Shown here: one piece after another, positions 3,212 through 52,813 of the stretch
Numbering within the stretch: the stretch's first letter is position 1
How the letters are laid out: the number at the start of each line of letters is the position of its first letter
The notes under the pieces: model-generated
The model's database searches: none
Told to the model about the DNA's origin: nothing
Seen by the model: only the letters and a program-made list of their open reading frames with translations
Assembly (NCBI GenBank): GCA_003142855.1
Contig: PLNW01000050.1
Coordinates: 1 to 64,000, forward strand
From: Myxococcales bacterium
GTDB lineage: Bacteria; Myxococcota_A; Polyangia; Fen-1088
DNA: 64,000 bases
Direction: 5' to 3'
Translations under genes and position numbers: made by a program

Positions 3212-4829
3212 TCATGTCTCCACTTCCTCAACGAAAGTCCCGGCAACATCGTCCGAACCGTCCGGATCGTCCGACGCCTCGACTTCCTTGGTCCTGTTGT
3301 CGGCCGATCCGGCCGGACCATCCCCGGTAGTGGCACGCCCATCGTCCGAGGCCACCTGCGGGCATTCCCCGCCGGTTTTCGGTGGATCAGCCGAGGCCTC
3401 CAGCGCGGGTGGCGGTGCCATCGACATGGCGATTACCCGCTGCCTGTCGTGCCCAGCGGCGCGGGAGAACTCGATCCGAATCCCTGCCTTCCGCATATTT
3501 GGCGCGACCCGACGAAGCGCTCCTGCCATGGCACGAGCAGTTTGTGGCCACCCTTTACCTCGTCTCGCCCAGTCGTCAGCCCTTCCGTCCACGGCCCGTA
3601 GGAGGTCCTTCGCCGTCCCGGACCATTCGCCCCGCTCGCCAACCAACGCTATGACCAATGTGGCTAGCTGCGACGACTCCAGCGCGGTCTCGTTGCCGTC
3701 GGCGCGGTTGCGTTGGTATGCCGCCATGACCGCACCCGTGGGCAGGCCGAGCCCGGCCTCGGCGGCGGTCGCCCAGATCGCAAAATCCGCCATTCTCGGG
3801 AGCAGGGGCAAGCGCACATCGCGATGGGCGCGCAGTGCATGTGCGACGGCATCCAGCAGTGCACCGAAAATCCGCCCGGCCGATGCATTTACCGCCTTCC
3901 GAATTTCCGATTCTGTTTTTCGTCCCGCCTCCGGTATTGGTTGCAACTCGACACTAATGCAACGGTCGATCAGATCTCCCCGCGTGGCGATTTCCTCGAT
4001 GGCCGTGAGGATCACTGGGCGTGGCAAATCCGCCCCCAGTCGATAGCCGGCAAAGCGCGTCGGACAACCAGGGTTCAATGTGAGAAAGGTTGTCGAGCGC
4101 GATGATCCACCCGTTGGCGGCTGCAATCGCCAGGTCGCGTGTGTCGCGCGGTTCGGCCCGCAGGTCGGCCTTGTTGGGGTCGACGAACTTGCGGAGGATC
4201 CGGACCAGCATGGACTTGGCCGTGCCCTGCTCGCCATGCACCAACAAGATCGGATAGGGACCAGTCGGCCGCAGCGCCGCCACCAACCAGGCCAGGACAA
4301 GCGTCCAATCACCATCGTCAGTGAGGTTCAGGAGCTGCCTCAGGGCGAGCAGGTTGCCCCCGTGCTCCGGCACCGGCAACGCCAGCATTCCTTGAGCACG
4401 AATAAAACGAACAGGCGAGTCATCCACAACGCGGAAGGTGCCGACGCTCGCCGAGATCTCAACCACTCTCCACTTCTCGTCGCACAGGTCCACGTAGATG
4501 AGATCGACGCCATCACCAGCGACACGAGCGTGAACCTCCTGCTGCGCACCCTTGTATAGCGCCTGAGCCTCCAGCGTTGCCTGCGCCTCCGCAATCGCAC
4601 TCGATTTCGCGGCCTCCTGTGTCGCGCAGTAGTACAGCCGTTGCAGATGCCTCCGAAACCGTCGGCACGCCGTTGGCCATGTTTCCCGATGGTCCTCCAC
4701 AGGGAAAGTGGCGAAGGTTTCACCCTCGCCGTTGTGGAAGAGTGCGGCCTGGTCGTCTGTTGCGAACAAATCGGCAATTGCCGTGGCCTGGCTCATCCTG
4801 CCCTCCGCGCCTTCGCCGTCATTGGCCAA
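3212..4829 (-). pseudogene. Phage/ICE-type helicase-primase-like ATPase, split by a frameshift
   Basis: ORF 3954..4829 carries Walker-A-like LLVHGEQGTAKSMLVRILRKFVDP and LSDALCRLSTGGGFAT, then loses frame. ORF 3212..4315 resumes with RPVILTAIEEIATRGDLIDRCISVELQPI. Together they read as one protein with a missing piece near 4018-4024. Confidence 0.75.
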
Positions 4830-5051
4830 TTTTGTTGTACAATCAATTCCCTAGTACGGACAGGTATCGGCAGGCCGACGCGGGTCTTGGCTGCTGTCTT
4901 CGTTCGGGGTCTTCGGGATGTCATTGCGATACTAGTTTGGCCCCGGTGCTCCTATGGAGCATGTGGGGGGAAAAGTCTTGCTAGTCGCCCCATGCGCGGC
5001 CTGCCAATCCCAGTGGTGGCCTGCCACTTCCAGTGGTGGGAGAATGTGCCC

Positions 5052-6230
5052 ATGCCAAAGGTCCGCACCAGCGTTCGCCGACTGCGAAGCAGTAGAACTC
5101 ACAAGTCCAAGAGGCCACGCAAGGCTCTGCGGGCAGCACCGCCTATTGTGGGCCGCAATGTTCCTGAACGAAGTGCTCCTGTCGAGAAGACTCCAGCGCT
5201 CGCCAGCGACACCGCCACCGCGACCGCAGTGATCGCGCTCGCGGGTTCACCCACGACACGCGCTTCGCTGGCTGCCGCAGTGAAGGAACGCTTTGGTTTC
5301 TCGATCGACGGTCTTTGGGCTTGGCTTGAGCGGAAGGAGTATCTTTCGCCAACGCTGCCTGATGACTGGGATCCTATTCAGGGTGCCGGGGGCGTGTACG
5401 CGCACTGGCTCGACTCGGGCCACAAGATCCTGCCGACTCCGACCATCGATGTGCCAAAGAGACGACTCGGCTCTCCCAACAAGGCGCGGGCAAAGGCTAG
5501 AAGGGCGCGACGCAAGCGGGCTTGTCGGCTCTGCGGGATTGCATCCGTGCTGTGGCGCTGCTGGTTGGCGACCCGACCCAGGCACCTGGGCTACGTCGAG
5601 CAGTACGAGAGCACTCTGGCGGAGCTTGGGAGGAGCGTGGCCAAGACTGCCGAAACGTACGTGAACGCCACCAAGGCGTTCATTGCCGCTCACGATGCCC
5701 GGCTGCGGGAGCTGGGGGACGAGCGGATTGGCATGATCGAAAAGGTGGAACAGGCAGACAGGGCCAACCGCAGTGACACGAAGAAGCAGCTTCGTGACCA
5801 GTATGACCACCAGTTGCTGCGCGACGGGCTTGCGCCGATCAAGAGGCTCGGCATTCACAAACGCTTAAGTGCCGTACTGCGGAGTATTGTGGCGCGACTG
5901 GACATCCTTCGACAGATCACAGTCGGATTTTCGAGGAATGATTTGGGCCAACCGCAGCGCTGGGCTGGTTCGGGACGCCAGCTGGATCTGATGACTGCCG
6001 TCTGGAAGACGCTTTGGGATCAGGGTTTCACATGTCGGGAGATCGGCGAGAACCTAGCTTGCCCGGGCGGCAAAGTAATCGACTACGCCCGTCTCGTAAA
6101 CGATCGGATTCACCCACGCTTTCATCCTCCGAAGCAGCCCCGATCTGGCGATGTTGAATCGGACGAGTCCGCCACTTTCGCAGTCAAATCGGATGCGGAC
6201 TTGACTGATAGTGCGTCGCGGGTGGGGTGA
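5052..6230 (+). CDS. Hypothetical protein, coiled-coil-like centre
   Basis: 393 aa ORF from ATG 5052; YESTLAELGRSVAKTAETYVNATKAFIAAHDARLRELGDERIGMIEKVEQADRANRSDTKKQ looks like a real helical protein. Possible compensated frameshifts around 5510-5585. Confidence 0.5.
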   Translation: MPKVRTSVRRLRSSRTHKSKRPRKALRAAPPIVGRNVPERSAPVEKTPALASDTATATAVIALAGSPTTRASLAAAVKERFGFSIDGLWAWLERKEYLSPTLPDDWDPIQGAGGVYAHWLDSGHKILPTPTIDVPKRRLGSPNKARAKARRARRKRACRLCGIASVLWRCWLATRPRHLGYVEQYESTLAELGRSVAKTAETYVNATKAFIAAHDARLRELGDERIGMIEKVEQADRANRSDTKKQLRDQYDHQLLRDGLAPIKRLGIHKRLSAVLRSIVARLDILRQITVGFSRNDLGQPQRWAGSGRQLDLMTAVWKTLWDQGFTCREIGENLACPGGKVIDYARLVNDRIHPRFHPPKQPRSGDVESDESATFAVKSDADLTDSASRVG

Positions 6231-6461
6231 ACCGAAACTGACTTCTCCCCCAATAGCGCAGTCGGCGACTATCGGCTTGAATTGCATGCGTAATGAGATC
6301 GCTGCCTCAAGCTGTTCGCCTCGACGGCGTCGACATAGCTGACGTCCGGGCGAGCTGCGACCAGGTGGATCGCTGTTGGCTGGCGGTGGGGCGTCCGCGC
6401 CGTCAGCCACCACTCCGGTCCGGCGAGGCCGATCTCGTGGACGCGCGGTGGGGGCCAGGCC

Positions 6462-7454
6462 ATGGCTGATGGCCACCTCTCGGTGACGTTGGTTGCACAA
6501 CGCACCGGCTACAGCCCGTATCTCATCCGCAGGTGGTGCGAAACAGGCAAGCTGACCGCGATCAGAACTCCTGGGCGGCAGTGGCGGATACTCGCGTCTG
6601 CCGCGTTCGCTACGTTGGGCAGGTTGACCCCCACGGATCCCGTTGCGCAGCCCGCTCCCGCTGCGGGGTCGCCGCCGTTGCCTGCTCCCTCCGCTGCCGG
6701 GCAGGATGCTGGCGTCATGCCTCCCAACGACAACCTGCATGGCGGATCTGACTCGTGCGGACGTGAAATCACGAGTAATAACGAGCACTTGCCATGTGAC
6801 TCAGAACGAGCGACGGTGGATTCTAATGATCACGGCAATGCACCGCAGGCAATGTCTGGGCTTTCGCCATCCGACCGGCTGGACGCGGCAGCGATGGCGG
6901 CCCACCTGGGCGGCAAGCTGGCACCTGGAACCCTGGTGCGATGGGCACGCAAGCGTCGCATCCCTGCCTTCAAGGCCGGCCGCACCTGGCTGTTCGTCGC
7001 CGCGGACGTTGTCGCGGCCCTGGCCCAGGGCTATCCACCTGCAAGGGAAGTAGGAGATTCCAGTGATGTCGATCCAGGAGGTGAGCCCCGGCAGATTCGT
7101 GGTGCAAAAGTTCGCGGCCGATCCGCTCGGCGGCGCACCACGAAGGTGGTGCAAGCGAGCGCGGGGCCGAGCGGCGGCGGAGCAGCAGGAAAAGACGTTC
7201 GAGGCCGAGGCCAACGAGTGGACGGCGAGGCAGCGACTGATAGGCCAGGCACAGGCAAAGGGGGTCGCGCTGGCTTTGCCCTCGATGCCGACCAGCGCGA
7301 CCGGCTTTGCAGACTTCTTGGAAAAGGTCTACTTGCCGTGGACACGAACGAAGCTCGACCCACAGACCATGCGGGCGCGGGCGCCATCGATCATGATCCT
7401 GGCGCAGGACCTGGGCAACACGCCGCTACACCAAATCGAAAACCAGGTCGATGA
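6462..7454 (+). CDS. Excisionase/MerR-like helix-turn-helix protein with two HTH segments; C-terminus uncertain
   Basis: LSVTLVAQRTGYSPYLIRRWCETGKLTAIRTPGRQWRI and MAAHLGGKLAPGTLVRWARKRRIPAFKAGRTWLFVAADVVAAL resemble Xis-type winged HTH. The last ~130 codons overlap the integrase gene out of frame. Confidence 0.6.
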   Translation: MADGHLSVTLVAQRTGYSPYLIRRWCETGKLTAIRTPGRQWRILASAAFATLGRLTPTDPVAQPAPAAGSPPLPAPSAAGQDAGVMPPNDNLHGGSDSCGREITSNNEHLPCDSERATVDSNDHGNAPQAMSGLSPSDRLDAAAMAAHLGGKLAPGTLVRWARKRRIPAFKAGRTWLFVAADVVAALAQGYPPAREVGDSSDVDPGGEPRQIRGAKVRGRSARRRTTKVVQASAGPSGGGAAGKDVRGRGQRVDGEAATDRPGTGKGGRAGFALDADQRDRLCRLLGKGLLAVDTNEARPTDHAGAGAIDHDPGAGPGQHAATPNRKPGR

Positions 7455-8355
7455 ACTGGTCGCCAGGTGGCGCGCCGAGGGCTGCCGGTACTCGGCCGCC
7501 ATCGACCGTCTTGGCCGCCCGCTGAACCGCAAGCCGCGTCCGATCAGCGACGCCGGCATCAATGAACGCCTCAAGATCCTGCGCGCGATTCTTGGACACG
7601 CACATATGCAGGCCAAGGTTCTCGCCACTCGTCCGAGAATTCAGCTTCTCAAGAACAAGCGCGCCAATCCCGGCGCAGCCGAGCCGACTCGCTACTTCGC
7701 GCCTGAAGAGCGGGTTCGCTTCCATCGCTACGCCCGGACCGATGTGCGCGACGTGTTTGAAGTCGGACGCATGCTGGGCACCCGGCCGGGTGAACTGTTC
7801 CACCTCAGGGTCGGTTCCGTGGACTTCAAACAAAAGAAGATCTGGGTGCAAGCTACGCCGTGCCCACTGTGCCCAGGCAACACGTGGACACCAAAGACGG
7901 GCTGCTTTCGCGGCATCGACATCTGTCCCGACTTGATGCCCATCCTGCGCCGGCTGACCAAGGGCAAACCCGACGATGCGCTCTTGATCGAGAACACCCA
8001 CGGTGCGCCCTACTCACGCCTGGTGGGCAGCGGCGGCCAGTTCACCAAGACACTCCGGCGCGCCGGCCTCGACCGCAAGGGGCTGTCGATGTACAGCTTG
8101 CGCCACACCTTCGCCGCTGATCTGATCACTGCTGGCAGACCAATCCGGGAAGTGGCCGCCCTCCTGGGCAACACGCCCCGGACCTGCGAGTTGCACTACG
8201 CGCACCTCATGCCGGGAAGGACGGCTGAGGCGGTGAAGGCGCTCAAGGCGATCGAGCCCTGGCCCACGGCAAAGCCGGTGATGATTGCTGACAACGCCAA
8301 GCACGCCGAGAACACGGCGGCGACCAAGGCGCCGAAGACCATCAAGGCGGCGTAG
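7066..8355 (+). CDS. Tyrosine recombinase/integrase
   Basis: C-terminal catalytic motifs: ...MLGTRPGELFHLRVGSVDF..., GLSMYSLRHTFAADLITAGRPIREVAALLGNTPRTCELHYAHLM (R, HxxR, H, Y pattern). Confidence 0.9.
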   Translation: MSIQEVSPGRFVVQKFAADPLGGAPRRWCKRARGRAAAEQQEKTFEAEANEWTARQRLIGQAQAKGVALALPSMPTSATGFADFLEKVYLPWTRTKLDPQTMRARAPSIMILAQDLGNTPLHQIENQVDELVARWRAEGCRYSAAIDRLGRPLNRKPRPISDAGINERLKILRAILGHAHMQAKVLATRPRIQLLKNKRANPGAAEPTRYFAPEERVRFHRYARTDVRDVFEVGRMLGTRPGELFHLRVGSVDFKQKKIWVQATPCPLCPGNTWTPKTGCFRGIDICPDLMPILRRLTKGKPDDALLIENTHGAPYSRLVGSGGQFTKTLRRAGLDRKGLSMYSLRHTFAADLITAGRPIREVAALLGNTPRTCELHYAHLMPGRTAEAVKALKAIEPWPTAKPVMIADNAKHAENTAATKAPKTIKAA

Positions 8356-8385
8356 TCCCCCACGGCCACCAACAAGGAACCCTCG

Positions 8386-8883
8386 ATGACATCGGAACGC
8401 TACCGCGAATCAAGGAACATGCCTCGCCCACTTCCTTCAAGAGCGACCAAGGGCGCCCGGCCTTGTAGGTCCAACTCCTTCTACGAGGCCAGCCGCCCCA
8501 CGGAGGGCGTCGAGGGTCACCCTGTCGATGTTGTCATCGATCGCTTGCCAAAGGTGGCGAGCCTCTGTCGCAGACTGCTGCGCTTGGCGAAAAGATGGCA
8601 GTGCGAGGTCAGCGACGCGCAGGCCTTCATCGCATACGAAGATCTCCGGCTGGAATATTTGAGGTTGCGCGAGCAGGGCTACTTCGACGCTGGATACCAC
8701 TATGGCCTTCTCGCTGGGAGGGCAGAATCCCACGCCGCCAGCGCGGCGGACAATCCTGCTGTTCGCGCCTTCGCTCACCAAATTGGCTTGGCTGCCGCCG
8801 TGGCCAAGATCCCACAACCCCGGATCGCGGCGGCGCTGATGGAGATCGCGCGGGCCGTGGTGCTTGGCCTGCCGCTGCGATGA
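8386..8883 (+). CDS. Hypothetical protein
   Basis: 165 aa ORF immediately downstream of the integrase, same strand. Confidence 0.5.
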   Translation: MTSERYRESRNMPRPLPSRATKGARPCRSNSFYEASRPTEGVEGHPVDVVIDRLPKVASLCRRLLRLAKRWQCEVSDAQAFIAYEDLRLEYLRLREQGYFDAGYHYGLLAGRAESHAASAADNPAVRAFAHQIGLAAAVAKIPQPRIAAALMEIARAVVLGLPLR

Positions 8884-8925
8884 CAGCCGATGCTGCTTTC
8901 CCGGTGTGCCCGGCTGGTTCAACGG

Positions 8926-9789
8926 CTACGCTGCCCTGGTCATCTCGATCAGCACGGCCTTCCGCCCTGTCAGTCTCGCCGCCTCACCCACAGGCCCCGA
9001 CCCTGCGTATGGGTCGAGCACCACGCCGCCCTTGGGGACGAACACCTTCACAATTTGGGTCATCAACTCGACGGGCTTTGCGCTGACATGTGCCTTGGCA
9101 TTCCGGACCTTGGGCACCACGAAGATGTGGCTCATGCTGCCGAGGACATCGTCTGTGGCCAGCACTGTCGTTGGATAGCGGCCAAGGTCATTGGCGACGA
9201 AAGCTTCATGGCCGTAGGCGTTCAGCGACTCGTGGTAGACGGGGCGCCGGCGACCAGCCGCTCGCAGCGGATTGATTCGACTGGCCTGTTTCTTGTCCTC
9301 TTCATTGAGCCACGGAATGCGGGCCTCGTCGACGTTGATCGGAATCGGCTTGCCTGGAGCGCGAGCGATCAGAATCGGATCGTGCGCGGGGAGCAGATGG
9401 CAAAGAGATGGGGCTCGGCCTCCGCGATACATCCAAATCGCTTGATCCTTCACCTCGAAACCCGCCTGCCGCACCCGCCAGCCCAAGACGTCGTACAGCC
9501 GCCGGGCCGCGAAGGCCACTAGCACCGCGCCCGGCTTCAGAAGGCGCAGCACCTCGCGCCAGACTTCAACAGCGGGCACATCTTGATCCCAGTCAGCCAC
9601 GTGGAGCCCGTAGGGTGGATCGCAGACACAGGCGTCAAACACACCCTCTGGCAAGAGGGGCATGACGTCCCGGCAGTCGCCGTGGATCACTTCGACGGAT
9701 GGGTCGGCGTAGGCATCAGCAGCGCACACCACAACGCCGGACCCAAAGCTCTTGGCGGAGATCGGATCGGCGGTGGCGGGTGGAAGCAC
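8926..9789 (-). CDS. Site-specific DNA methyltransferase (N6-adenine/N4-cytosine type, beta-class motif order)
   Basis: VIHGDCRDVMPLLPEGVFDACVCDPPYG (motif IV) precedes VELMTQIVKVFVPKGGVVLDPYAGSGPVGEAARLTGRKAVLIE (motif I). Confidence 0.88.
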   Translation of the reverse strand: MLPPATADPISAKSFGSGVVVCAADAYADPSVEVIHGDCRDVMPLLPEGVFDACVCDPPYGLHVADWDQDVPAVEVWREVLRLLKPGAVLVAFAARRLYDVLGWRVRQAGFEVKDQAIWMYRGGRAPSLCHLLPAHDPILIARAPGKPIPINVDEARIPWLNEEDKKQASRINPLRAAGRRRPVYHESLNAYGHEAFVANDLGRYPTTVLATDDVLGSMSHIFVVPKVRNAKAHVSAKPVELMTQIVKVFVPKGGVVLDPYAGSGPVGEAARLTGRKAVLIEMTRAA

Positions 9790-10263: not shown

Positions 10264-11685
10264 CTACGGGGTCTTGGCGAAGAAGCCAAAGTACTCGCGC
10301 GCGTTGCGGAAGCAGATGTCCCGCACCATGTTGCCGAGCAAGTCCATGTCGCCAGGAATGAGCCCGTTCTCGACGTCGTTTCCCAACAGGTTGCACAGCA
10401 GCCGGCGGAAGTACTCGTGGCGTGAGTACGACAGAAAGCTGCGCGAGTCGGTCAGCATGCCCACGAAACGCGAGAGCAGGCCGAGCGCGGAGAGCGCGTT
10501 CATCTGGCGCTCCATACCGTCCTTCTGATCCATGAACCACCAGGCCGCGCCGAACTGAATCTTGCCGGGGCACGAACCATCCTGAAAATTGCCCAGCATG
10601 GTGGCGATGACTTCGTTGTCGGCCGGATTCAGGTTGTAGATGATGGTCTTGCAGAGCTGGTTGGTGGAATCTAGACGGTCGAGCAGACGTGCGAGGCCGG
10701 CGGCCTGCGGATAGTCGCCGATGGAATCAAAACCAGTGTCAGGCCCTAGGGTGCGCATCACGCGCGTGCTGTTGTTGCGCATGGCCCCCAGGTGGAACTG
10801 CTGCGTCCAACCGCGGGCATGGTCCATGATGGCCAGCTCGTAGAGCATGGCCGAGCGGAACTGGTCGCGCTCGACTGGCGCCAGCGCCCGCTTGGCTCGC
10901 GCCTTGGCGAAGATGTCCTCGATCTGCTTGGCGGTATGGGGTTCGGCGACGATCTGCTCGAGGCCGTGATCGCTGACACGGCACCCGACCTGATGGAAGA
11001 AATCATGGCGTTTCTTGAGCGCGTCCAGGAAGGTGTCGAATGAGCTGATGGCCACGCCCGACACAGCCTGCAGCTTGTCCACCCACAGGTTCCAGGCGTC
11101 GAGGTCGGCCAAGGTCATGGCCTTGTCGGGCCGCCATGTAGGTAGCAGCTTGGTGGCGGCAGAAGCGTTCTTGCCGTGTCGCTGATGGGCTTCGAGTGAG
11201 TCCAACGGGTCGTCGGTGGAACAGACCACCATGACCTTGAAGTGCTTGAGCAACCCCTGGGTGGTGAAGTCGTCTTGGGCCAGCTTGCTGTTGCAGTGAT
11301 CGTAGATCTCGCGCGCCGTCGACGGATTGAGCAGCTTGCCCTTCACCCCGAAGGGATTCGCCAACTCCATGTGGGTCCAGTGGTACAGTGGGTTGCGCAG
11401 GGTGTAGGGCACCGTCTTGGCCCACATCTCGAACTTCTCCCAGTCGGACGCGTCGCCTGTGCAATAGCGTTCCGCCACGCCGTTGGAACGCATGGCACGC
11501 CACTTGTAATGGTCGCCGTTCAGCCAGATCTGGGTCAGCGTCCCGAACTTGTGATTGTCGGCCACCTGATCGGGAGGCAGGTGGCAGTGGTAGTCGATGA
11601 TGGGCTGATCCTTGGCGTCCTCGTGGTACAGGCGCTCCGCTGTCTTGGTCTCAAGCAGGAAACTCTCATCGAGAAAGGGTTTCAT
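10264..11685 (-). CDS. uxaC: Glucuronate/galacturonate (uronate) isomerase
   Basis: MKPFLDESFLLETKTAERLYHEDAKDQPIIDYHCHLPPDQVADN...NGDHYKWRAMRSNGV...; 473 aa, diagnostic UxaC. Confidence 0.96.
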   Translation of the reverse strand: MKPFLDESFLLETKTAERLYHEDAKDQPIIDYHCHLPPDQVADNHKFGTLTQIWLNGDHYKWRAMRSNGVAERYCTGDASDWEKFEMWAKTVPYTLRNPLYHWTHMELANPFGVKGKLLNPSTAREIYDHCNSKLAQDDFTTQGLLKHFKVMVVCSTDDPLDSLEAHQRHGKNASAATKLLPTWRPDKAMTLADLDAWNLWVDKLQAVSGVAISSFDTFLDALKKRHDFFHQVGCRVSDHGLEQIVAEPHTAKQIEDIFAKARAKRALAPVERDQFRSAMLYELAIMDHARGWTQQFHLGAMRNNSTRVMRTLGPDTGFDSIGDYPQAAGLARLLDRLDSTNQLCKTIIYNLNPADNEVIATMLGNFQDGSCPGKIQFGAAWWFMDQKDGMERQMNALSALGLLSRFVGMLTDSRSFLSYSRHEYFRRLLCNLLGNDVENGLIPGDMDLLGNMVRDICFRNAREYFGFFAKTP

Positions 11686-11754
11686 GGCCGCACGAAGCTA
11701 CCGCAGGTCGGCCTCGAAGGAAAGCAGCGCCAGGCCTAGCGGCAGGAAACGATG

Positions 11755-11988
11755 TCAGAGGGTCGTGATATCCGGCAGGCTTCCATCCGGGTTGCGCTTG
11801 GCCGCGGCCGCTTTCGCCGATGTGGCCGAGGCGGTGACCCGATTCTGAACGGTGATGCTCTGGAAATCCCCACCGTTGGAATTGGTGTTGTTCCACTCCC
11901 CGCACTTGCTGCAGGTCATGGCCGCTGGGTTGGAGTTGTTGGCGAAAGAAAGACTCCCCGTGGGCACCAAGTAAAGCGTCACGTACAC
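11755..11988 (-). CDS. Hypothetical short protein
   Basis: 77 aa ORF upstream of uxaC on the same strand; one CxxC pair; weak support. Confidence 0.25.
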   Translation of the reverse strand: MYVTLYLVPTGSLSFANNSNPAAMTCSKCGEWNNTNSNGGDFQSITVQNRVTASATSAKAAAAKRNPDGSLPDITTL

Positions 11989-12019
11989 TCAATGAATGAC
12001 GAGAAGCCCAGGAGTACCC

Positions 12020-13693
12020 ATGCCCAAGATTTTCAGAGGCCTCCCTTGTTTCTGCCTTCTCGTCAGTGCCTGCGGCGGCTCAGGCTCTTCTGTGAAAACC
12101 CCCGACGCATCCCCTGGCGGGAGCGCGGGCACCTCTGCGCCGGGCAGCGGAGGGATCACGCAAACCGGCGGCCTTGCGAGTGCGGGCGGCACGACTGACG
12201 GGAGCAAGCCGGTTGGCGGTACGGTGGCGAGTGGGGGCACGGCCGGCGCGTCGACCGCCACAGGCGGTGCGATTTCAGGAGCCGGCACCACCGCGCCCGG
12301 TGGAACGCAAGCGACGGGCGGCACGAACGAAGCGGGCGGCACGACGACGATGGGCGGCACCGCGATGACCGGCGGGATCCAGGCTAGCGGCGGCAGCACG
12401 AGCATGGGCGGCACGACGGCAGCGGGCGGGACCAAGGCACCAGGGGGCACGACGGCAGCGGGCGGGACCAATACCACGGGTGGCACCACGGCGGCTGGCG
12501 GGAGCAAGACAGCGGGTTCCACCGCGACGACGGGCGGCAGTAGCGCGACCGGCGGGGCTGGCGGAGGTGGTGCCGGCAGCGGGGGCGCGGGCACGCGTAC
12601 TGGTGGCTCGGCTGGCAGCGGAGCAGGCGGCGCGGCCGGCTCCTCGGCAAATACCGGCGCCCCCGAAACCAGCCCGCTGGGCTATGGCAAGGCCACGACC
12701 GGCGGTGGCAGCGTCTCTGCCACGACTGTTGCCGACATGGCGGCCATGCAGGCCGCTATTGATGCCTACTCGGCATCGGGCGGTCTGGTGCTCAAGTACA
12801 CGGGCCAGTTCAACTTCGCGAGCATCCCCGATCCCTGCGTGCAGCACACTTTGCCGGCCCAGACCATTGAAATCAAAAAGAAGAGCAACATCACGATTCT
12901 GGGTGCGGATGGCTCGGCTGCCAATTTCGGCATCCACATCGCGTCCTCCTCGAGCAATATCATCATTCGCAATATGACCATCGGTCTGACACCGGGTGGC
13001 GGCGATTCGGATATGATTTCGCTAGAAGGAATGAGTGGTGGCATTCCCACGGACATCTGGATCGACCACAATGAGTTGTTCAGTTCGATGCTTGATTGCG
13101 CCGGCGCAGGCGACACGTCCTTCGACGGTATGATCGACATCAAGAAAGGGGCCGACAACGTCACCATTTCGTACAATTACATGCACGACCATCACAAGGT
13201 GTCTATGAACGGCTACAGTGACGACGACTCTGCGGTTCGCCACGTCACCTTTCACCACAACCTCTTTGAGAACGTCGGCTCGCGAACCCCTCTGCAGCGT
13301 TTTGGCTATTCACATATGCTCAACAACTACCTGTACAAAGTCTTGGTTTCGGGCATCAATGTCCGCATGGGGGGCTACTCGCTGGTCGAGGCCAACTACT
13401 TCGAGACGGTGCTCAATCCAGTGACTGCGCGCGACAGTACGGCGGTTGGCTACTGGGACCTGCGCAACAACAACCTCGCGAGCAAAGCCGACGTGTCTGC
13501 CGGCAATGCCTTTGGCATCACTTGGGACGCAGGCAACTCGGGCACCGTCAACGCAACTGACTGGACCACGACCGCGGCCTTCCCGGAACCGCTAGGCTAC
13601 ACCTACACCGCGGACCCCTTCCAGTGCGTGCACGATGGTCTGCGGGCGGTGGCCGGCGCGGGCAAGGGCTTGGCTACGCTGAAGTGCAAGTAG
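12020..13693 (+). CDS. Pectate lyase-like (PL1-type) lipoprotein with Gly/Thr/Ala-rich linker
   Basis: Lipobox CLLVSACGG; long GGT/GGS linker; catalytic domain DIWIDHNEL...DGMIDIKKGADNVTISYNYMHDHHKVSMNG...VRHVTFHHNLFENVGSRTPLQRFGYSHMLNNYL. Confidence 0.9.
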   Translation: MPKIFRGLPCFCLLVSACGGSGSSVKTPDASPGGSAGTSAPGSGGITQTGGLASAGGTTDGSKPVGGTVASGGTAGASTATGGAISGAGTTAPGGTQATGGTNEAGGTTTMGGTAMTGGIQASGGSTSMGGTTAAGGTKAPGGTTAAGGTNTTGGTTAAGGSKTAGSTATTGGSSATGGAGGGGAGSGGAGTRTGGSAGSGAGGAAGSSANTGAPETSPLGYGKATTGGGSVSATTVADMAAMQAAIDAYSASGGLVLKYTGQFNFASIPDPCVQHTLPAQTIEIKKKSNITILGADGSAANFGIHIASSSSNIIIRNMTIGLTPGGGDSDMISLEGMSGGIPTDIWIDHNELFSSMLDCAGAGDTSFDGMIDIKKGADNVTISYNYMHDHHKVSMNGYSDDDSAVRHVTFHHNLFENVGSRTPLQRFGYSHMLNNYLYKVLVSGINVRMGGYSLVEANYFETVLNPVTARDSTAVGYWDLRNNNLASKADVSAGNAFGITWDAGNSGTVNATDWTTTAAFPEPLGYTYTADPFQCVHDGLRAVAGAGKGLATLKCK

Positions 13694-13904
13694 GCTTCGC
13701 AGATTCCCCGGATGGCTGGGCCGCGCGGCGAAAATGCGCCCGCTGGGCCGACAGGAAGCGGGTCGCCAGGCTCGCGACTCACGGGCGCCATCTGGATCCC
13801 GTCGGAGGGCGTGGCTGGTCATCCTTGGTGTCGCGGTTGACGTCCGAGTGTTTATCGGACATCCTCGCGTGCGATGACCCAAAAGGAAGGGTCGGCTACC
13901 CTAT

Positions 13905-15173
13905 ATGCCCATGACGATGAGTATCTCGAAGTATTCTATGGGGGTTGGTGACCGCTTTGGCCTGGAAGGGGTGGCGCAGTTGCGGGCCTTTCAGGCAGCC
14001 AAGCATCGCGGCGTTGCGATCACGCCGGTGTGGAACAAGTCGAACCGCGAACACTCCCTGATCGGTACACGTCCTGAGGACGTGCGCGCCGAGGCAGAGG
14101 CCGCGGTCAAGTCGTGCCAGTGGAGGGACGCCTATTTCGTCGACGCCGATCATATCGGCCTGGCCACCGTCGACAAGTTCCTCGCCAGCAGCGATTTCTT
14201 CACCATCGACGTCGCGGACTCCATCGGCAAGTCGGCCTCCGACGCGGCCATCGCCGAGTACGTGGCCGACATGCAGCGCTTCGCAGGGGCGCTGCGCATT
14301 CCGGGTGTGGCCGAGCCGGTGACCGTCACGGCGGCGTCCCTGCAAGCGATCGCCGCGAAGTATCTTTTCGCGGTCGAAGAGGCGGGCCGCATCTACCGCC
14401 ACATCGCGCAGGCGAAGGGCGAGGGAAACTTCGTCACCGAGGTGTCCTTCGACGAGGCCAACACCCCGCAGACGCCCGCCGAGCTGTTTTTCATTCTGGC
14501 TGCGGCGGCACGCCAGAAGATCCCGGTGGCCACAGTCGCGCCCAAGTTCACCGGCGAGTTTCTCAAGGGGATCGACTACGTGGGCGACAGCCAGCGGTTT
14601 GCTCGCGAATTCGACGAGGATCTCGCGGTCTTGGCATTTGCCCGGCAAACCTTCGGACTGCCCGCGTCGCTCAAGCTGAGCATTCATTCGGGCAGCGACA
14701 AGTTCTCGCTCTACCCCATCATCCACCGGGCCATCAAGAAGGCCGACGCCGGTCTTCACCTGAAGACCGCGGGCACCACCTGGCTGGAGGAAGTCATCGG
14801 GCTTGCCGCGGCGGGGGGCGACGGGTTGGCCTTCGTCAAGGCTCTGTATCGCGAGGCCTACGGCCGCTACGAAGAAATGGCCAAGCCCTATCTCACCGTC
14901 ATTTCCATCAACCGCACGGTGTTGCCGACGCCGGCCGAGGTGGACTCGTTCAGCGCCCAGGATTATGTCCAGACGCTGGAGCACAACCAGGCCTGCAAGC
15001 GCTTCAATATCCATTTCCGCCAGATGGTGCACATCAGCTTCCGCCTGGCGGCCGAGAAGCAGGCGCAGTACCTGGCTCTGCTCAAATCCAATCGCGCCAG
15101 CATCGAATCCCATGTGACCGACAACATCCTCAAGCGCCATATCGAGCCGTTGTTTCTGGGAACCGGCGGGTGA
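13905..15173 (+). CDS. uxaE: Tagaturonate/fructuronate epimerase family protein
   Basis: 422 aa; SISKYSMGVGDRFGLEGVAQLRAF...ITPVWNKSNREHSLIGT...YFVDADHIGL...LSIHSGSDKFSLYPIIHRAIKKADAGLHLKTAGTTWLEEVIGLA, characteristic of UxaE. Confidence 0.88.
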   Translation: MPMTMSISKYSMGVGDRFGLEGVAQLRAFQAAKHRGVAITPVWNKSNREHSLIGTRPEDVRAEAEAAVKSCQWRDAYFVDADHIGLATVDKFLASSDFFTIDVADSIGKSASDAAIAEYVADMQRFAGALRIPGVAEPVTVTAASLQAIAAKYLFAVEEAGRIYRHIAQAKGEGNFVTEVSFDEANTPQTPAELFFILAAAARQKIPVATVAPKFTGEFLKGIDYVGDSQRFAREFDEDLAVLAFARQTFGLPASLKLSIHSGSDKFSLYPIIHRAIKKADAGLHLKTAGTTWLEEVIGLAAAGGDGLAFVKALYREAYGRYEEMAKPYLTVISINRTVLPTPAEVDSFSAQDYVQTLEHNQACKRFNIHFRQMVHISFRLAAEKQAQYLALLKSNRASIESHVTDNILKRHIEPLFLGTGG

Positions 15174-15210
15174 CGTTTGAGACCTTTCGACCCATCTATT
15201 AGGAGCGACC

Positions 15211-16044
15211 ATGGACCCTAAGAATTTCGTCAGTGCCTACGATTTCACGGGAAAGACAATTGCTATTACGGGTGGCGGGGGGGTCTTGTGCGGTGAGATG
15301 GCCCGGGCATTGGCGGGCTGTCACGCCAACGTGGTTGTTCTAGACCGCGATGTGGGGCTGGCCGAGAAGGTGCTCGCCACTCTGAAAGGCACGAAAGGAG
15401 GCCACCAGGCTGCCTTCATCGATGTGCTGGACAAGGCGGCGGTTCAGCAAGCAGCCGACAAGGTCATCAAGGAGTACGGCAAGATCGACGGACTCATCAA
15501 TGGTGCCGGTGGCAACAATCCCAAGGCCACCACCAACCCCGAGCAATCATTCTTCGACATTCCGCCCGAAGCCATCCAGTTCGTGTCGACCCTGAACCTG
15601 CAGGGGACCATCCTGCCCAGTCAGGCCTTCGGCCGGTGCATGGTCAAGCAGAAGGAAGGCGTGATCCTGAATATCTCGTCAATGAATGCCTTCCGGCCGC
15701 TCACCAGGATTCCCGCGTATTCTGCGGCCAAGGCCGCTGTAAGCAATTTCACCCAGTGGTTGGCGGTGCACCTGGCACAAGAGTATTCGGCGAACATCCG
15801 GGTGAACGCCATCGCCCCGGGATTCTTCCTCACCGAGCAGAATCGCTTCCTGCTCACCGACAAGGAGACCGGGGGGCTCACCGCTCGCGGTCACAAGATC
15901 ATCGACCACACGCCCATGGCCAGATTCGGAACGCCCGGGGACTTGGTGGGCGCGGTGCTATGGCTGCTGTCGCCCGCGTCGAACTTCGTGACTGGAATCG
16001 TACTGCCCATTGATGGGGGCTTCTCGGCCTACAGTGGTGTGTAA
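15211..16044 (+). CDS. SDR-family oxidoreductase, probable D-mannonate oxidoreductase (fructuronate reductase)
   Basis: [64 protein letters not shown] and FLTEQN signatures match the SDR mannonate/fructuronate oxidoreductase subgroup. Confidence 0.8.
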
Positions 16045-16091
16045 ACTACCGCGGTGCGCTGACTGAAACGGAATTGACTGAAGGAATCATC

Positions 16092-17501
16092 ATGGCAAAG
16101 CAGAGTTTTGGAATGGTCGGGCTGGGCGTAATGGGAGAAAACCTAGCTCTCAACATCGAGAGCCATGGATTTTCTGTGGTCGGCTTCGATCTCGACGGCA
16201 AGAAAGTCGACAACTTCGCGGCCCGAACCAAAGGCAAGCAGGTGGTGGCCGCGCGCACGGTGGCCGAGTTCGTCGCCAACCTGGACACGCCCCGACGGGT
16301 GCTGATGATGGTTCCCGCGGGCAAAGCTGTCGACGCGGTGATCGCCGACCTGCGCCCCCATCTCAAATCGGGCGATCTCTTGATCGATGGCGGCAACACG
16401 TTGTTCGTGGACACTGATCGGCGCATCAAAGAGTTGCAGGGCACGGGAATCTATTACATCGGCACCGGGGTCAGCGGCGGCGAAGAGGGTGCCCTGCACG
16501 GACCGGCCATCATGCCCGGCGGCAACCCGGAGGCGTGGCCGTTGGTGAAACCGATTCTGCAAGCCATCGCAGCCAAGGCCGAGGATGGCGCGCCCTGTTG
16601 CGAGTGGATCGGAAGTGGCGGAGCGGGTCACTTCGTCAAGATGGTGCACAACGGAATCGAATACGGCGACATGCAGATGATCTGCGAAGCATACTTCATC
16701 ATGGAGAGGTTGCTGGGCATGTCCGCCGACGAGATGAGTCGGGTGTTTGCCGAATGGAACAAGGGAGAACTGAGCAGCTACCTGGTGGGCATCACCGCCG
16801 AGATTCTCAGCAAGAAGGATCCCGAGACCGGCAAGCCCATGGTGCAAATCATTCTCGACACCGCCGAGCAAAAGGGCACTGGCAAGTGGACCAGCCAGGT
16901 GTCGCTCGACTTGGGCGTCCCGGCCCCCACCATTGCCGACGCCGTGTTTGCCCGCACGCTGAGCGCCCTGAAGAAGGAGCGGGTGGCTGCTTCGGGCGTG
17001 CTGGCAGGACCTACAGCGAAGTTCACCGGAGACAAGGCCGCCTTCATCGAAATGATTCGCAAGGCCTTGTTCAGCTCGAAGATCTGTTCTTATGCGCAAG
17101 GCTTCCAACTCCTGCGCGCGGCCGACCATGAATACCACTGGGACCTGCAATTTGGCGTCATCTCGTCGCTGTGGCGCGCCGGGTGCATCATCCGGGCGCA
17201 ATTCCTGGGTCGGATCAAGGACGCCTATGCGCGCAGCGCCGCCCTGGCCAATCTCCTCCTTGATCCCTATTTCGCAGGCGTGACGGCGTCCTACCAGCAG
17301 GACTGGCGCAAGGTCGTCTCTGCGGCCGCGGAAAATGGCATCGCCATTCCCGCCTTCATGAGCGCCCTGGCCTACTACGATGGCTACCGCACGGGCGTTC
17401 TTCCTGCCAATTTGCTGCAAGCACAGCGCGACTACTTTGGCGCGCACACCTACCAGCGTGTCGACAAGGAGGGCAAGTTCCACACGCAATGGACAGCGTA
17501 G
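16092..17501 (+). CDS. gnd: 6-phosphogluconate dehydrogenase, decarboxylating
   Basis: [35 protein letters not shown]...[21 protein letters not shown]...[22 protein letters not shown]. Confidence 0.96.
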
Positions 17502-17531
17502 GCCTGGCCCTGTTGCTACGCTAGGAGAGAC

Positions 17532-18788
17532 ATGAGCACGTTTTTCGGTCACGGATCCATGGAGCAACGGCTCACCCCTAAAGATGTGAAGGACATCTGC
17601 GCGGCGACGTTGGCCGATCTTCCGCTCGACGGAAAACGCGTGCTCGTGCTCATCCCGGATCACACGCGACACGCTCCCATCGACCTGTTCTTTCATGTGT
17701 TGAGCGATCTGCTGCAATCTCGCGTCAGCGTGCTGGATTACATGGTGGCCACCGGCACCCACGCCGCCATGGAGCCGGATCGGCTCTACCGTCACATCGG
17801 ACTGACGCCGTCGGAACACGCGCAAAGCTACCCGAAAGTCCGCCTCTTCAACCACGAGCACCACAAACGCGACCAACTGATCTCGCTGGGCACGCTTGCC
17901 GGTGAAGAAGTGGCGCAGCTCACCAATGGGCTTTTCTCTCGCGACATTCCCGTCACGATCAATCGCAAGGCCACCGAGTACGACCACATTCTCATCGTCT
18001 CACCCGTGGTCCCGCACGAGGCCATGGGATTTGCCGGGGGCAACAAGTACTTCTTCCCGGGCATTGCGGGACTCGACGTGGTGGAGAAGTTCCACTGGCT
18101 GGCGGCGGTCATCACCAATCCAGTGGTCAACGGCGTGAAGGACACGCCCACCCGCCGGGTGATCAATCGCGCGGTGCAGTTTCTGGCCACGCCACGCACC
18201 TGCTTCGCCTTTGCCGTCGACGATCATCATCAGCTGGCCTGCCTGTTCGGCGGCGACCCCGCAGAATCCTGGTCGCGCGCGGCTGACTATTCGGCGCAAC
18301 TGCACATCAAGTACCTCGACAAGCCGGTTCGTCGCGTGCTGGGCTTGACGCCTTCCATCTACGAAGAGGTGTGGGTCGCGGGCAAGGCCATGTACAAGCT
18401 GGAGCCCATCGTGGCCGACGGCGGCGAGTTGGTCATCCACGGGCCGCACGTCAAGGCCGTGTCGTTCATGCACGGCAAGCAGATCGAACGCATCGGCTAC
18501 CACGTGCTCGACTACTTCGTGAAGCAGTGGGAGCGTTTCGCCGAGGAATCGAAGCTGATCCTGGCGCACTCGACCAACGTCAAGGGCATCGGCCGATTCG
18601 AGAACGGCGTCGAGTACCCGCGAATCACCGTGACCTTGGCCACCGGCATTCCCAAGGCGAAATGCGAAGCCATCAACCTCGCCTATCGCGACGTGAATTC
18701 GATCGACATTGAACGTTGGAAACAGGATGAAGACACCCTCGTCGTGGAAGAGGCCGGACAGGTGCTCTATCGTCTGAAGGACAAATAG
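17532..18788 (+). CDS. LarA-like nickel-dependent hydroxyacid racemase/epimerase
   Basis: LIPDHTRHAPID, VATGTHAAM, VVPHEAMGFAGGNKYFFPGIAG: the DHTR, TGTH, PH and GGxK catalytic/cofactor motifs of the LarA family are present. Confidence 0.85.
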   Translation: MSTFFGHGSMEQRLTPKDVKDICAATLADLPLDGKRVLVLIPDHTRHAPIDLFFHVLSDLLQSRVSVLDYMVATGTHAAMEPDRLYRHIGLTPSEHAQSYPKVRLFNHEHHKRDQLISLGTLAGEEVAQLTNGLFSRDIPVTINRKATEYDHILIVSPVVPHEAMGFAGGNKYFFPGIAGLDVVEKFHWLAAVITNPVVNGVKDTPTRRVINRAVQFLATPRTCFAFAVDDHHQLACLFGGDPAESWSRAADYSAQLHIKYLDKPVRRVLGLTPSIYEEVWVAGKAMYKLEPIVADGGELVIHGPHVKAVSFMHGKQIERIGYHVLDYFVKQWERFAEESKLILAHSTNVKGIGRFENGVEYPRITVTLATGIPKAKCEAINLAYRDVNSIDIERWKQDEDTLVVEEAGQVLYRLKDK

Positions 18789-18823
18789 CGCCGAAAGCGC
18801 AGTGACAGGAGCAGGAATTCAAC

Positions 18824-19906
18824 ATGAGCGACAGTTTGAACGTTCGCCCCGCAGGTGGTCTCGATTTCGTATCGGTCGGCGCCCTGGTGCACCGATTGGA
18901 TCCCGGCATTGTCCCCTGGCGCAAGGCTAGCAGTTGCCAGATCCACGTGAGTGGCGGCGAGTTCAACGTGGCCGCCAATTTGGCCGACTGTTTTCGCATG
19001 AACACCGGGATCGCGACCGCCATGGTGGATTATCCCATTGGCGACATGATTCACGAGCGGGTCCGGGCCATGGGCGTGACGCCGTTTTACAAGCGCTTCA
19101 AGCACAACGGCGTGAACGGGCCCAACATGGCCATGGTGTACAGCGATCGCGGGCACGGTGTGCGCGCGCCTGTCGTGTTCTACAATCGCAGCAATGAGGC
19201 CGGCGCGCAGCTCAAGCCTGGCGACTTCGATTGGGGCGCCATCTTCAAGAACGGCGTGCGCTGGTTCCACAGTGGCGGCATCTTTGCAGCCCTGTCCGAG
19301 ACCACCGGCGAGGTTATCATCGAAGGCATGAAGGCCGCCAAAGCCGCGGGCGCTATTTGCAGCTTCGATCTCAATTTCCGCGAGAAGCTGTGGAACATCT
19401 GGGGCGGGGCACACAAGGCGGCCGAGGTCGTCGGGCGCATCGTGGCCAATGCCGACGTGCTGGTGGGCAACGAGGAGGATCTGCAAAAGGGATTGAACAT
19501 TGCCGGCCAGGACGTCGAGAAGCGCTCCAAGCTCGACCCCGGTGCGTTCTTCGCCATGATCGACAAGGTCACGGCCAAGTTCCCGCAAGTCAAGGTCGTG
19601 TGCACGACCCTGCGCGAGGTTGCCTCGACCAATCGCCACGCCTGGGGCGCGGTGGCCTGGGTCAACGGCAAGACCCATGTTTCGCCCACCTGCGACCTCG
19701 ATGTGCACGATCGCGTGGGCGGCGGCGACGGCTTTGCCAGCGGCTTCATCTACGGACTGCTCTCCGGCGAATCAGCCGACGAAGCCCTCAAGCTCGGCTG
19801 GGCCCACGGGGCGTTGCTCACCACCACACCGGGTGACACCACCATGGTGACGCTGGAACAGGTGAAGGCCTTCGCCAAGGGCGGCTCGGCGCGCATTCAA
19901 CGCTAG
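18824..19906 (+). CDS. PfkB-family sugar/sugar-acid kinase (KDG kinase-like)
   Basis: GGEFNVAANLADCF N-terminal motif; DLDVHDRVGGGDGFASGFIYGLL C-terminal PfkB signature. Confidence 0.85.
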   Translation: MSDSLNVRPAGGLDFVSVGALVHRLDPGIVPWRKASSCQIHVSGGEFNVAANLADCFRMNTGIATAMVDYPIGDMIHERVRAMGVTPFYKRFKHNGVNGPNMAMVYSDRGHGVRAPVVFYNRSNEAGAQLKPGDFDWGAIFKNGVRWFHSGGIFAALSETTGEVIIEGMKAAKAAGAICSFDLNFREKLWNIWGGAHKAAEVVGRIVANADVLVGNEEDLQKGLNIAGQDVEKRSKLDPGAFFAMIDKVTAKFPQVKVVCTTLREVASTNRHAWGAVAWVNGKTHVSPTCDLDVHDRVGGGDGFASGFIYGLLSGESADEALKLGWAHGALLTTTPGDTTMVTLEQVKAFAKGGSARIQR

Positions 19907-51100: not shown

Positions 51101-52813
51101 ATGCTCCAGCACAGCATCCAGCTCCACAGCATCGACTACGTTTTGCTCGTCACGTACTTCCTGTTCGTGCTGGGCATAGGCTTCGTTCTCCGTCGCACGG
51201 TCAGCGGCAGCAAGGACTTCTTCGAGTCTGGACGCTCGCTGCCAGCCTGGATTTGCGCTCTTGGCTTCATCGGGGCGAACCTGGGCGCGCAAGAGGTCAT
51301 GGGCATGGCGGCCTCCGGCGCCAAGTACGGCATGATGACCAGCCACTTCTATTGGATCGGCGCCGTCCCGGCCATGGTCTTCGTCGCCATCTTCATGATG
51401 CCGTTCTACTACGGCTCCAAGGCGCGCTCGGTTCCCGAGTACCTGAAGCTGCGTTTCGACGAAAAGACTCGCGGATTCAACGCCCTCACCTTCGCCTGCA
51501 TGACCATCATGTCGTCGGGGATCTCCATGTATGCGCTGGCCAAGTTGCTCAACGCCATCCTGGGCTGGAACTTCCACGGCTGCATTCTCGTCTCGGGCGT
51601 CATCGTCCTGGCCTACATCTTCATGGGAGGCCTGACGTCGGCCATCTACAACGAGGTGCTGCAGTTCTTTCTGATCGTCTTCGGCTTTCTGCCCCTGGTG
51701 TTGCTCGGACTCAAGGACGTGGGTGGCTGGGACGGCTTGGTTGCCAAACTGGTCAAGCCAGCCATCAACGCGGGATTCGCCCCCGACACCTGGACCCATT
51801 CGTGGTCCCACACCGGCTCGGCCGCGACCAATCCCATGGGAGTGGAATGGTTCGGTCTGGCCATGGGGCTGGGATTCGTGCTCTCCTTCGGCTATTGGTG
51901 CACTGACTTTCTCGTGGTGCAACGGGCGATGGCCGCCAAGGACATGGGGGCTGCCCGACGAACACCAATACTCGCGGCGGTGCCCAAGATGTTCTTCCCC
52001 GCGCTGGTGATCCTACCCGGCCTCATCGCCATCGCGCTGCACAGCGCGGGCGGCAACTTTCATCTTCCGTCGAAAAACGGCGGACTGGATTACGACATGG
52101 TGGTTCCCACCATGCTGGCCCACTACTTTCCCACCGGCATGCTCGGGCTCGGCCTGACGGCCTTGATGGCTTCCTTTATGAGCGGGATGGCCGGCAACGT
52201 GACGGCCTTCAACACGGTCTTCACCTACGACCTGTACCAGGGCTATATCAAGAAGGACGGCAGCGACGCGCACTATCTGGCGGTGGGGCGCTGGACCACC
52301 GTGGTCGGCATTCTCGCTTCGATGGCCGCGGCCTATGCGGCAGCGTCCTTCAACAACATCATGGACATCCTGCAGCTTGTGTTTGCCTTCGTGAACGCGC
52401 CTCTGTTCGCCACCTTCCTGCTGGGCATGTTCTGGAAGCGCACCACCGGCCACGGCGCGTTCTTCGGCCTGATAGCGGGCACCGTGGCCGCCGCCATCCA
52501 CCACGGACTCTCCCTGCCTCACGGCGCCAGTGCTGGCATCAAGGGCGGCTGGCTGGGCGCTGTCCACGTCTACCCGAGCGAAATGGCGCAGAACTTTTGG
52601 ACCGCGATCTTCGCCTGGTCGACCTGCTTTATCGCGACCATCCTCATTTCACTTCTCACCCGCCAGAAGAAAACCGACGAGGAGCTGGGCGGGTTGGTCT
52701 ATTCCCTCACCTCCAAGATCAAGGAACGCGATGCCCGCTGGTGGCAGCGCCCGGCCCTGCTCGGCAGCATCGTGCTGGCGCTCGCCGTTGTTCTCAACCT
52801 CCTATTCTGGTAA
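51101..52813 (+). CDS. Sodium:solute symporter (SSS/SGLT family)
   Basis: IDYVLLVTYFLFVLGIGFVLRRTVSGSKDFFESGRSLPAWICALGFIGANLGAQEVMGMAASGAKYGMMTSHFYWIGAVPAMVFV...; ~14 hydrophobic segments. Confidence 0.93.
   Translation: MLQHSIQLHSIDYVLLVTYFLFVLGIGFVLRRTVSGSKDFFESGRSLPAWICALGFIGANLGAQEVMGMAASGAKYGMMTSHFYWIGAVPAMVFVAIFMMPFYYGSKARSVPEYLKLRFDEKTRGFNALTFACMTIMSSGISMYALAKLLNAILGWNFHGCILVSGVIVLAYIFMGGLTSAIYNEVLQFFLIVFGFLPLVLLGLKDVGGWDGLVAKLVKPAINAGFAPDTWTHSWSHTGSAATNPMGVEWFGLAMGLGFVLSFGYWCTDFLVVQRAMAAKDMGAARRTPILAAVPKMFFPALVILPGLIAIALHSAGGNFHLPSKNGGLDYDMVVPTMLAHYFPTGMLGLGLTALMASFMSGMAGNVTAFNTVFTYDLYQGYIKKDGSDAHYLAVGRWTTVVGILASMAAAYAAASFNNIMDILQLVFAFVNAPLFATFLLGMFWKRTTGHGAFFGLIAGTVAAAIHHGLSLPHGASAGIKGGWLGAVHVYPSEMAQNFWTAIFAWSTCFIATILISLLTRQKKTDEELGGLVYSLTSKIKERDARWWQRPALLGSIVLALAVVLNLLFW

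Follow-up and report, generated by a model that had tools for sequence, protein, structure and literature searches.

The 64,000-nucleotide stretch analyzed here (hereafter the window; positions 1 to 64,000 of contig PLNW01000050.1, an uncultured soil Myxococcales bacterium, assembly GCA_003142855.1) harbors a cluster of seven genes, i.e., uxaC, a pectate lyase gene, uxaE, a short-chain dehydrogenase/reductase (SDR) gene, gnd, larA and pfkB, that together look like a pathway for the use of pectin-derived hexuronates. The preliminary description of the window had already named this set, and profile searches found all seven genes at the coordinates first noted, each matching its named family. Five of them (uxaE-SDR-gnd-larA-pfkB, 13905-19906) lie on the plus strand and are separated by gaps of 37, 47, 30 and 35 bp, respectively, and such short distances (30-47 bp) are consistent with a single transcript. 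The uxaC gene is divergent from this operon and the pectate lyase gene is set apart from uxaE by 212 bp. Repeat and promoter scans of the window returned nothing relevant to the operon.

The uronate isomerase gene uxaC (10264-11685, minus strand; galacturonate to tagaturonate, glucuronate to fructuronate) matched PF02614 with 672 bits and NF002794 with 640 bits, the latter above its cut-off, and is likewise divergent and adjoining uxaE in the relatives L035, L038, L039 and L044. The pectate lyase gene (11996-13693, plus strand; PF00544, 167 bits) encodes a secreted-type protein whose N-terminal half contains a long Gly/Thr/Ala-rich repeat linker, encoded by 18-nt repeats (repeat family D1, window 12100-12650); a pectate lyase is found near the cluster in L035, L036 and L038 and is absent in L039 and L044. 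The product of uxaE (13905-15173, plus strand; PF16257, 189 bits) is a short form of tagaturonate/fructuronate 3-epimerase whose best PDB matches (6IL9, 6ILA and 9LHU) are all UxaE, and alignment to 6IL9 reveals that it keeps the catalytic Glu/Asp pair of C. laeviribosi UxaE as E49 and D82 (for the roles of the pair in the retro-aldol mechanism see PMC11194214). The SDR (15211-16044, plus strand) is a predicted fructuronate reductase/D-mannonate oxidoreductase (UxaD-like), as it exceeds the cut-off of the D-mannonate oxidoreductase model NF006132 (363 vs 281 bits), and it has a YSxxKAA motif in common with its best PDB match, 4WUV. Downstream of it, gnd (16092-17501, plus strand) encodes a decarboxylating 6-phosphogluconate dehydrogenase (TIGR00873, 696 bits, above cut-off) and is the sole PF00393 match in the genome, i.e., no second gnd was detected.

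The larA gene (17532-18788, plus strand; PF09861) encodes a GntE-like protein, predicted to be a nickel-pincer-nucleotide hexonate 2-epimerase interconverting D-mannonate and D-gluconate (or their 6-phosphates). Its best family is NF052594, "putative hexonate epimerase", which it matches with 165 bits, i.e., under the equivalog cut-off of 500, and its best PDB match is GntE2 of T. maritima (4NAR, E 1.4e-64). The LarA homologues GntE1 and GntE2 interconvert D-mannonate and D-gluconate (PMC7583248, PMC11770544). In the reference LarA, D72, H108, H174 and K298 are catalytic and R75, K184 and H200 bind the nickel-pincer nucleotide (PMC7583248); the corresponding residues here (catalytic D43, H77, H162 and K285, nucleotide-binding R46, K172 and H188) are invariant across 14 homologues. 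Two residues of the hexonate groups, E163 after the second catalytic His and W281 in alpha-11, are also invariant in this protein and the 14 homologues, and the second loop residue of the hexonate signature (EV/S) is A in the window-type LarA and V in the other type from the same family. Given that LarC (432 bits, with an overlapping open reading frame named LarB-like by reading) and LarE (TIGR00268, 316 bits) are encoded in the genome, the nickel-pincer cofactor can be made. Further members of the same family (L046, L049 and L050) have a LarA 43-48% identical to that of the window and no uronate genes; it is an orphan or, in L049, accompanied only by gnd.

The last gene, pfkB (18824-19906, plus strand), encodes a sugar-acid kinase of the PfkB family (PF00294), not of the FGGY or P-loop GntK type, that belongs to a distinct subfamily and is a predicted D-gluconate (or D-mannonate) 6-kinase. 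Its nearest solved relative is the 2-keto-3-deoxygluconate (KDG) kinase 2AFB (E 5.4e-44), and its nearest NCBIfam models are KDG kinases as well. In a tree, the window-type PfkBs (67-96% identity) group into a single tight clade with a clear stem, separate from the KdgK-like genes as well as from KDG kinases of known structure; its members come from Myxococcota, Ignavibacteriae, Bacteroidetes, Chloroflexi, Marinimicrobia and Vicinamibacteria. Among the positions that are fixed in this clade and differ from KDG kinases are (KDG kinases/clade) E/A at 20 (GE to GA), G/S at 43, R/N at 101, G/A at 103, E/D at 108, D/N at 121 and H/N at 124. Retained are the arginines aligned with R105 and R167 of the T. 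thermophilus enzyme and the catalytic Asp of the GGGD motif, which in this family make contacts to the carboxylate and to the phosphate acceptor. Judged by these residues, the natural reading of such a combination would be that a six-carbon sugar acid is still accepted and the 2-keto-3-deoxy acid is not.

The wider distribution of the module was assessed within the family and, using a scan with the LarA alignment, in one genome per species outside of it (80 loci from many phyla, of which 76 were kept once duplicates of family genomes had been removed). Two gene orders occur in the family, uxaE-SDR-gnd-larA-pfkB as in the window and SDR-larA-pfkB-gnd-uxaE, and in the second of these LarA is only 46-49% identical to that of the window and PfkB 75-77%. 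The 76 outside-family loci contain an SDR in 50 cases, Gnd in 43, UxaE in 24, UxaC in 13, a 2-keto-3-deoxy-6-phosphogluconate (KDPG) aldolase in seven and UxuA in none, these absences being soft since the loci were selected via LarA and many are incomplete. A uxaE-gnd-larA neighborhood, whose conservation the preliminary description had proposed to check, recurs in other genomes, and a gene set kept across genera and phyla points to clustering far beyond chance. The kinase place is taken by a window-type PfkB (11 loci), a KdgK-like PfkB (8) or an FGGY protein (3, one of them weak; best NCBIfam match of those in L101 and L074, gluconokinase TIGR01314), and a PPi-phosphofructokinase-like gene is seen in 24. 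Across these loci the window-type PfkB never co-occurs with an FGGY or phosphofructokinase-like gene and only once with a KdgK-like one (L063, where the two stand side by side), while in the loci sampled, themselves picked via LarA, it always adjoins LarA. On the LarA tree its partners are scattered and the kinase type switches at least 10 times; this re-pairing of one kinase type with distant LarAs suggests that the two are coupled by function and not simply inherited together with the cluster.

Some further neighbors of LarA were recorded in the outside-family loci. The PPi-phosphofructokinase-like gene (PF00365, motif GGNDS; e.g., L117:7694-8989, L111:12216-13505) lies beside LarA/Gnd; it was considered as an alternative gluconate kinase, but it scores as a diphosphate-fructose-6-phosphate phosphotransferase, and a later step of the pentose phosphate pathway would suit it better, perhaps as a kinase of sedoheptulose or fructose phosphate acting after ribulose 5-phosphate. 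A HAD-like protein of ~300 amino acids (GIDSDGCAFDTMEIKHKECF motif, no specific family; e.g., L117:3928-4827) stands beside LarA/Gnd in 29 of the 76 loci, from many phyla. Seeds of transaldolase, rpe and rpiB gave no match near LarA, and transketolase and phosphoglucose isomerase were found near it in isolated loci only. In L036, L038, L043 and L048, apparent breaks in gnd and pfkB fall on NN scaffold joins, and we attribute them to gaps of the assembly. The larA and pfkB of locus L067 are 79-87% identical to those of the window although their contig was binned as Syntrophaceae; since some of the relatives stem from the same fen_ series, this contig is probably misbinned.

The rest of the source genome (a 6.0-Mb draft in 166 contigs, 94% complete with 8% contamination) was searched for the genes that a conventional hexuronate pathway would require. 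Mannonate dehydratase UxuA (PF03786), altronate dehydratase UxaA (PF04295) and the ILVD/EDD family (PF00920) had no match in it, so that the absence of UxuA and UxaA, first remarked for the window, extends to the genome; UxuA was also not found in 17 relatives (18 genomes in all with the source, nine of them of good quality). A ManD-type dehydratase was not found in the genome either, two enolase-superfamily (MR_MLE) matches being below the cut-off and read as enolases. The absence of KDPG aldolase likewise holds for the window; it does not hold for the genome, where two copies lie elsewhere. One of these, on contig C23 (L033:9932-11716), has a KDG-kinase-like gene as its partner; this kinase is 47% identical to the window PfkB, and given this separate pair the latter is not needed as the KDG kinase of the genome. 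The C23 pair has no evident source of KDG, as UxuA, UxaA and EDD had no match and KduI was sought with one E. coli sequence only. Another gluconokinase was sought with a composite query that joined an FGGY gluconokinase to GntK and KduI of E. coli; the sole match was an FGGY gene, by reading a glycerol kinase, in a search that used single sequences and was thereby less sensitive than one with a profile. A single copy of zwf is present. With no ILVD/EDD gene, IlvD (dihydroxy-acid dehydratase) is also missing, which would mean either that the bacterium is auxotrophic for branched-chain amino acids or that the draft is incomplete at this point.

Based on what the sequences show, i.e., the identity of the genes and their arrangement as an operon, the catalytic residues, the lack of dehydratases in the assembly and the conservation, we consider it probable that the cluster serves the catabolism of pectin and hexuronates and delivers them to the pentose phosphate pathway with no dehydratase step, as a Thermotoga-type module with a PfkB in place of the gluconokinase. 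From these we infer the substrates of LarA and PfkB, the order of their two steps and the flux as follows: UxaC would convert D-galacturonate to D-tagaturonate, UxaE would epimerize D-tagaturonate to D-fructuronate, the SDR would reduce D-fructuronate to D-mannonate, the LarA-like nickel-pincer enzyme would invert C2 to give D-gluconate, PfkB would phosphorylate D-gluconate to 6-phosphogluconate and Gnd would release ribulose 5-phosphate and CO2, giving back the reductant used by the SDR. With one NAD(P)H used by the SDR and one regenerated by Gnd, the route would be redox-neutral up to ribulose 5-phosphate, a feature also remarked for L. suebicus (PMC6978723). The dehydratase-free route from galacturonate to ribulose 5-phosphate, as proposed in the preliminary description, thus gains support from the catalytic residues, the missing dehydratases, the presence of LarB/C/E and the conservation of the module; its implied corollary, a genome devoid of KDPG aldolase, has to be abandoned. 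Going by the residues and the tree, PfkB most likely represents a previously undescribed type of kinase with gluconate or mannonate as substrate, and the open-licence literature offered nothing on PfkB gluconokinases or mannonate kinases beyond the L. suebicus paper (PMC6978723). We hold it likely that this PfkB stands for a sugar-acid kinase family of its own (gluconate or mannonate 6-kinases) that arose from KDG kinases and that, with LarA as partner, takes the place of the dehydratase branch, yielding a stand-alone hexuronate route into the pentose phosphate pathway in uncultured bacteria of several phyla.

Several observations weigh against this proposal. Similarity alone places PfkB closest to KDG kinases, LarA scores under the cut-off of its best family, and the KM of the GntE enzymes for D-mannonate is high (GntE1 120 mM, GntE2 17 mM; PMC7583248). 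The pairing of LarA with PfkB comes from a sample that is biased, having been picked via LarA. All absences from the genome are provisional given the completeness and contamination of the draft, from which even IlvD is missing. In three close relatives all that is left of gnd between SDR/uxaE and larA is a remnant made of its first and last codons (L040:14986-15189, L042:8745-8974, L043:17232-17444), with larA and pfkB intact or nearly so and no gap letters at the junction, which is apparently common to L040 and L043 and differs in L042; these remnants would fit the proposal only if gnd lies elsewhere in the three genomes. Finally, the sole gnd of the source genome also has a housekeeping role, given zwf. 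That it sits in the cluster by accident as a housekeeping copy is unlikely, since Gnd is present in 43 of the 76 outside-family LarA loci.

The high KM values for free mannonate leave room for another native substrate (PMC7583248), and the same route might run with its middle reversed, PfkB acting as a D-mannonate 6-kinase and LarA converting 6-phosphomannonate to 6-phosphogluconate. Both activities, i.e., mannonate kinase and 6-phosphomannonate 2-epimerase, were shown in extracts of L. suebicus, where free mannonate was not epimerized (PMC6978723), but the genes responsible for them in that organism were not identified, free D-mannonate is a substrate of GntE2 and others (kcat up to 197 per second; PMC7583248), and in two LarA clusters the kinase place is held by an FGGY kinase with gluconokinase as its best family match. 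We regard this order as possible, though rather unlikely. A canonical Entner-Doudoroff-type scheme, in which PfkB would be a KDG kinase working with a KDPG aldolase on KDG from a missed or unknown-family dehydratase, and LarA and Gnd would be just an entry or exit for gluconate, draws on the kinship of PfkB with KDG kinases in PDB and NCBIfam, on the KDPG aldolases of the genome and on the incompleteness of the assembly. It appears very unlikely in view of the lack of UxuA in the 18 genomes and in all 76 related loci, the lack of UxaA, EDD and ManD in the source genome, the separate kdgK-kdgA pair, the presence of both kinase types in L063 and the loss in the window PfkB clade of residues common to KDG kinases.

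The sub-threshold match of LarA to NF052594, a family whose activity is itself only predicted, and the related loci with LarA and no uronate genes (L046, L050) would also suit a LarA acting on some other sugar acid (e.g., altronate, galactonate or an aldarate), in which case the cluster would be a mixed set of sugar-acid genes with no single linear pathway. However, its best solved relative, GntE2, is a demonstrated D-gluconate 2-epimerase, and the adjacency to Gnd in 43 outside-family loci indicates gluconate or 6-phosphogluconate, so that we give this scenario the slimmest of chances.

Around the cluster, open reading frames adjoining uxaC (window 4641-9789) include an integrase/recombinase-like one (7063-8355) and a DNA methyltransferase-like one (8926-9789, minus strand), identified by eye, which suggests that a mobile element adjoins the cluster on the uxaC side. 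Farther away, a 570-amino-acid open reading frame (51101-52813) resembles, by appearance, a sodium:solute symporter and is a candidate sugar-acid transporter.

If the proposed dehydratase-free pathway is true, a route argued from Thermotoga and measured in one Lactobacillus only would be a common means of pectin and uronate use among uncultured bacteria, a gene would be supplied for the kinase step whose gene is not identified in L. suebicus, and genes annotated as "KDG kinase" beside larA and gnd would be misannotated. The LarA-PfkB pair could also serve the metabolic engineering of pectin waste.

The idea of the pathway is not new: as cited in PMC6978723, Rodionova et al. 2012 proposed it for the pel-gnd-uxaE-uxaD-gntE-gntK locus of T. 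maritima, and the activity of the GntE enzymes was demonstrated afterwards. What is new here is the PfkB subfamily in place of the gluconokinase, and that the dehydratase branch kept by Thermotoga is not found. The UxaR-regulated locus of T. maritima (aldH-pelB-gnd-uxaRED-gntEK; PMC3750489), which matches the Thermotoga locus with uxaE, gnd and a gluconate kinase mentioned in the preliminary description, brings together a pectate lyase, Gnd, UxaE, an SDR, a GntE-type LarA and a kinase, as does the window, with the same inferred route to ribulose 5-phosphate. The two differ in that the kinase is GntK in T. maritima and PfkB here, that T. maritima has a co-regulated kdgA-kdgK-uxuB-uxuA operon whereas no uxuA was found in the source genome, and that the UxaR-type regulator has no identified counterpart here. 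In the galacturonate-phosphoketolase pathway of L. suebicus (PMC6978723) the upper isomerase route to mannonate also joins 6-phosphogluconate and leaves the lower KDG enzymes unused; it was shown to proceed via 6-phosphomannonate, the candidates for its kinase and epimerase genes being homologues of gluconate kinase. The window LarA has the catalytic and cofactor residues, the Glu that follows the second catalytic histidine and the alpha-11 Trp (hexonate groups 18-20) in common with GntE2/LarAH20 of T. maritima and GntE1/LarAH19, but its second loop residue is A and not V or S, and it is closer to NF052594 (group 18). Similarly, the window PfkB has the same fold, GGGD nucleotide/anion-hole motif and aligned arginines as the KDG kinases of T. 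maritima (2AFB), T. thermophilus (1V19) and E. coli (KdgK), and departs from them at the clade-fixed positions 20, 43, 101, 103, 108, 121 and 124.

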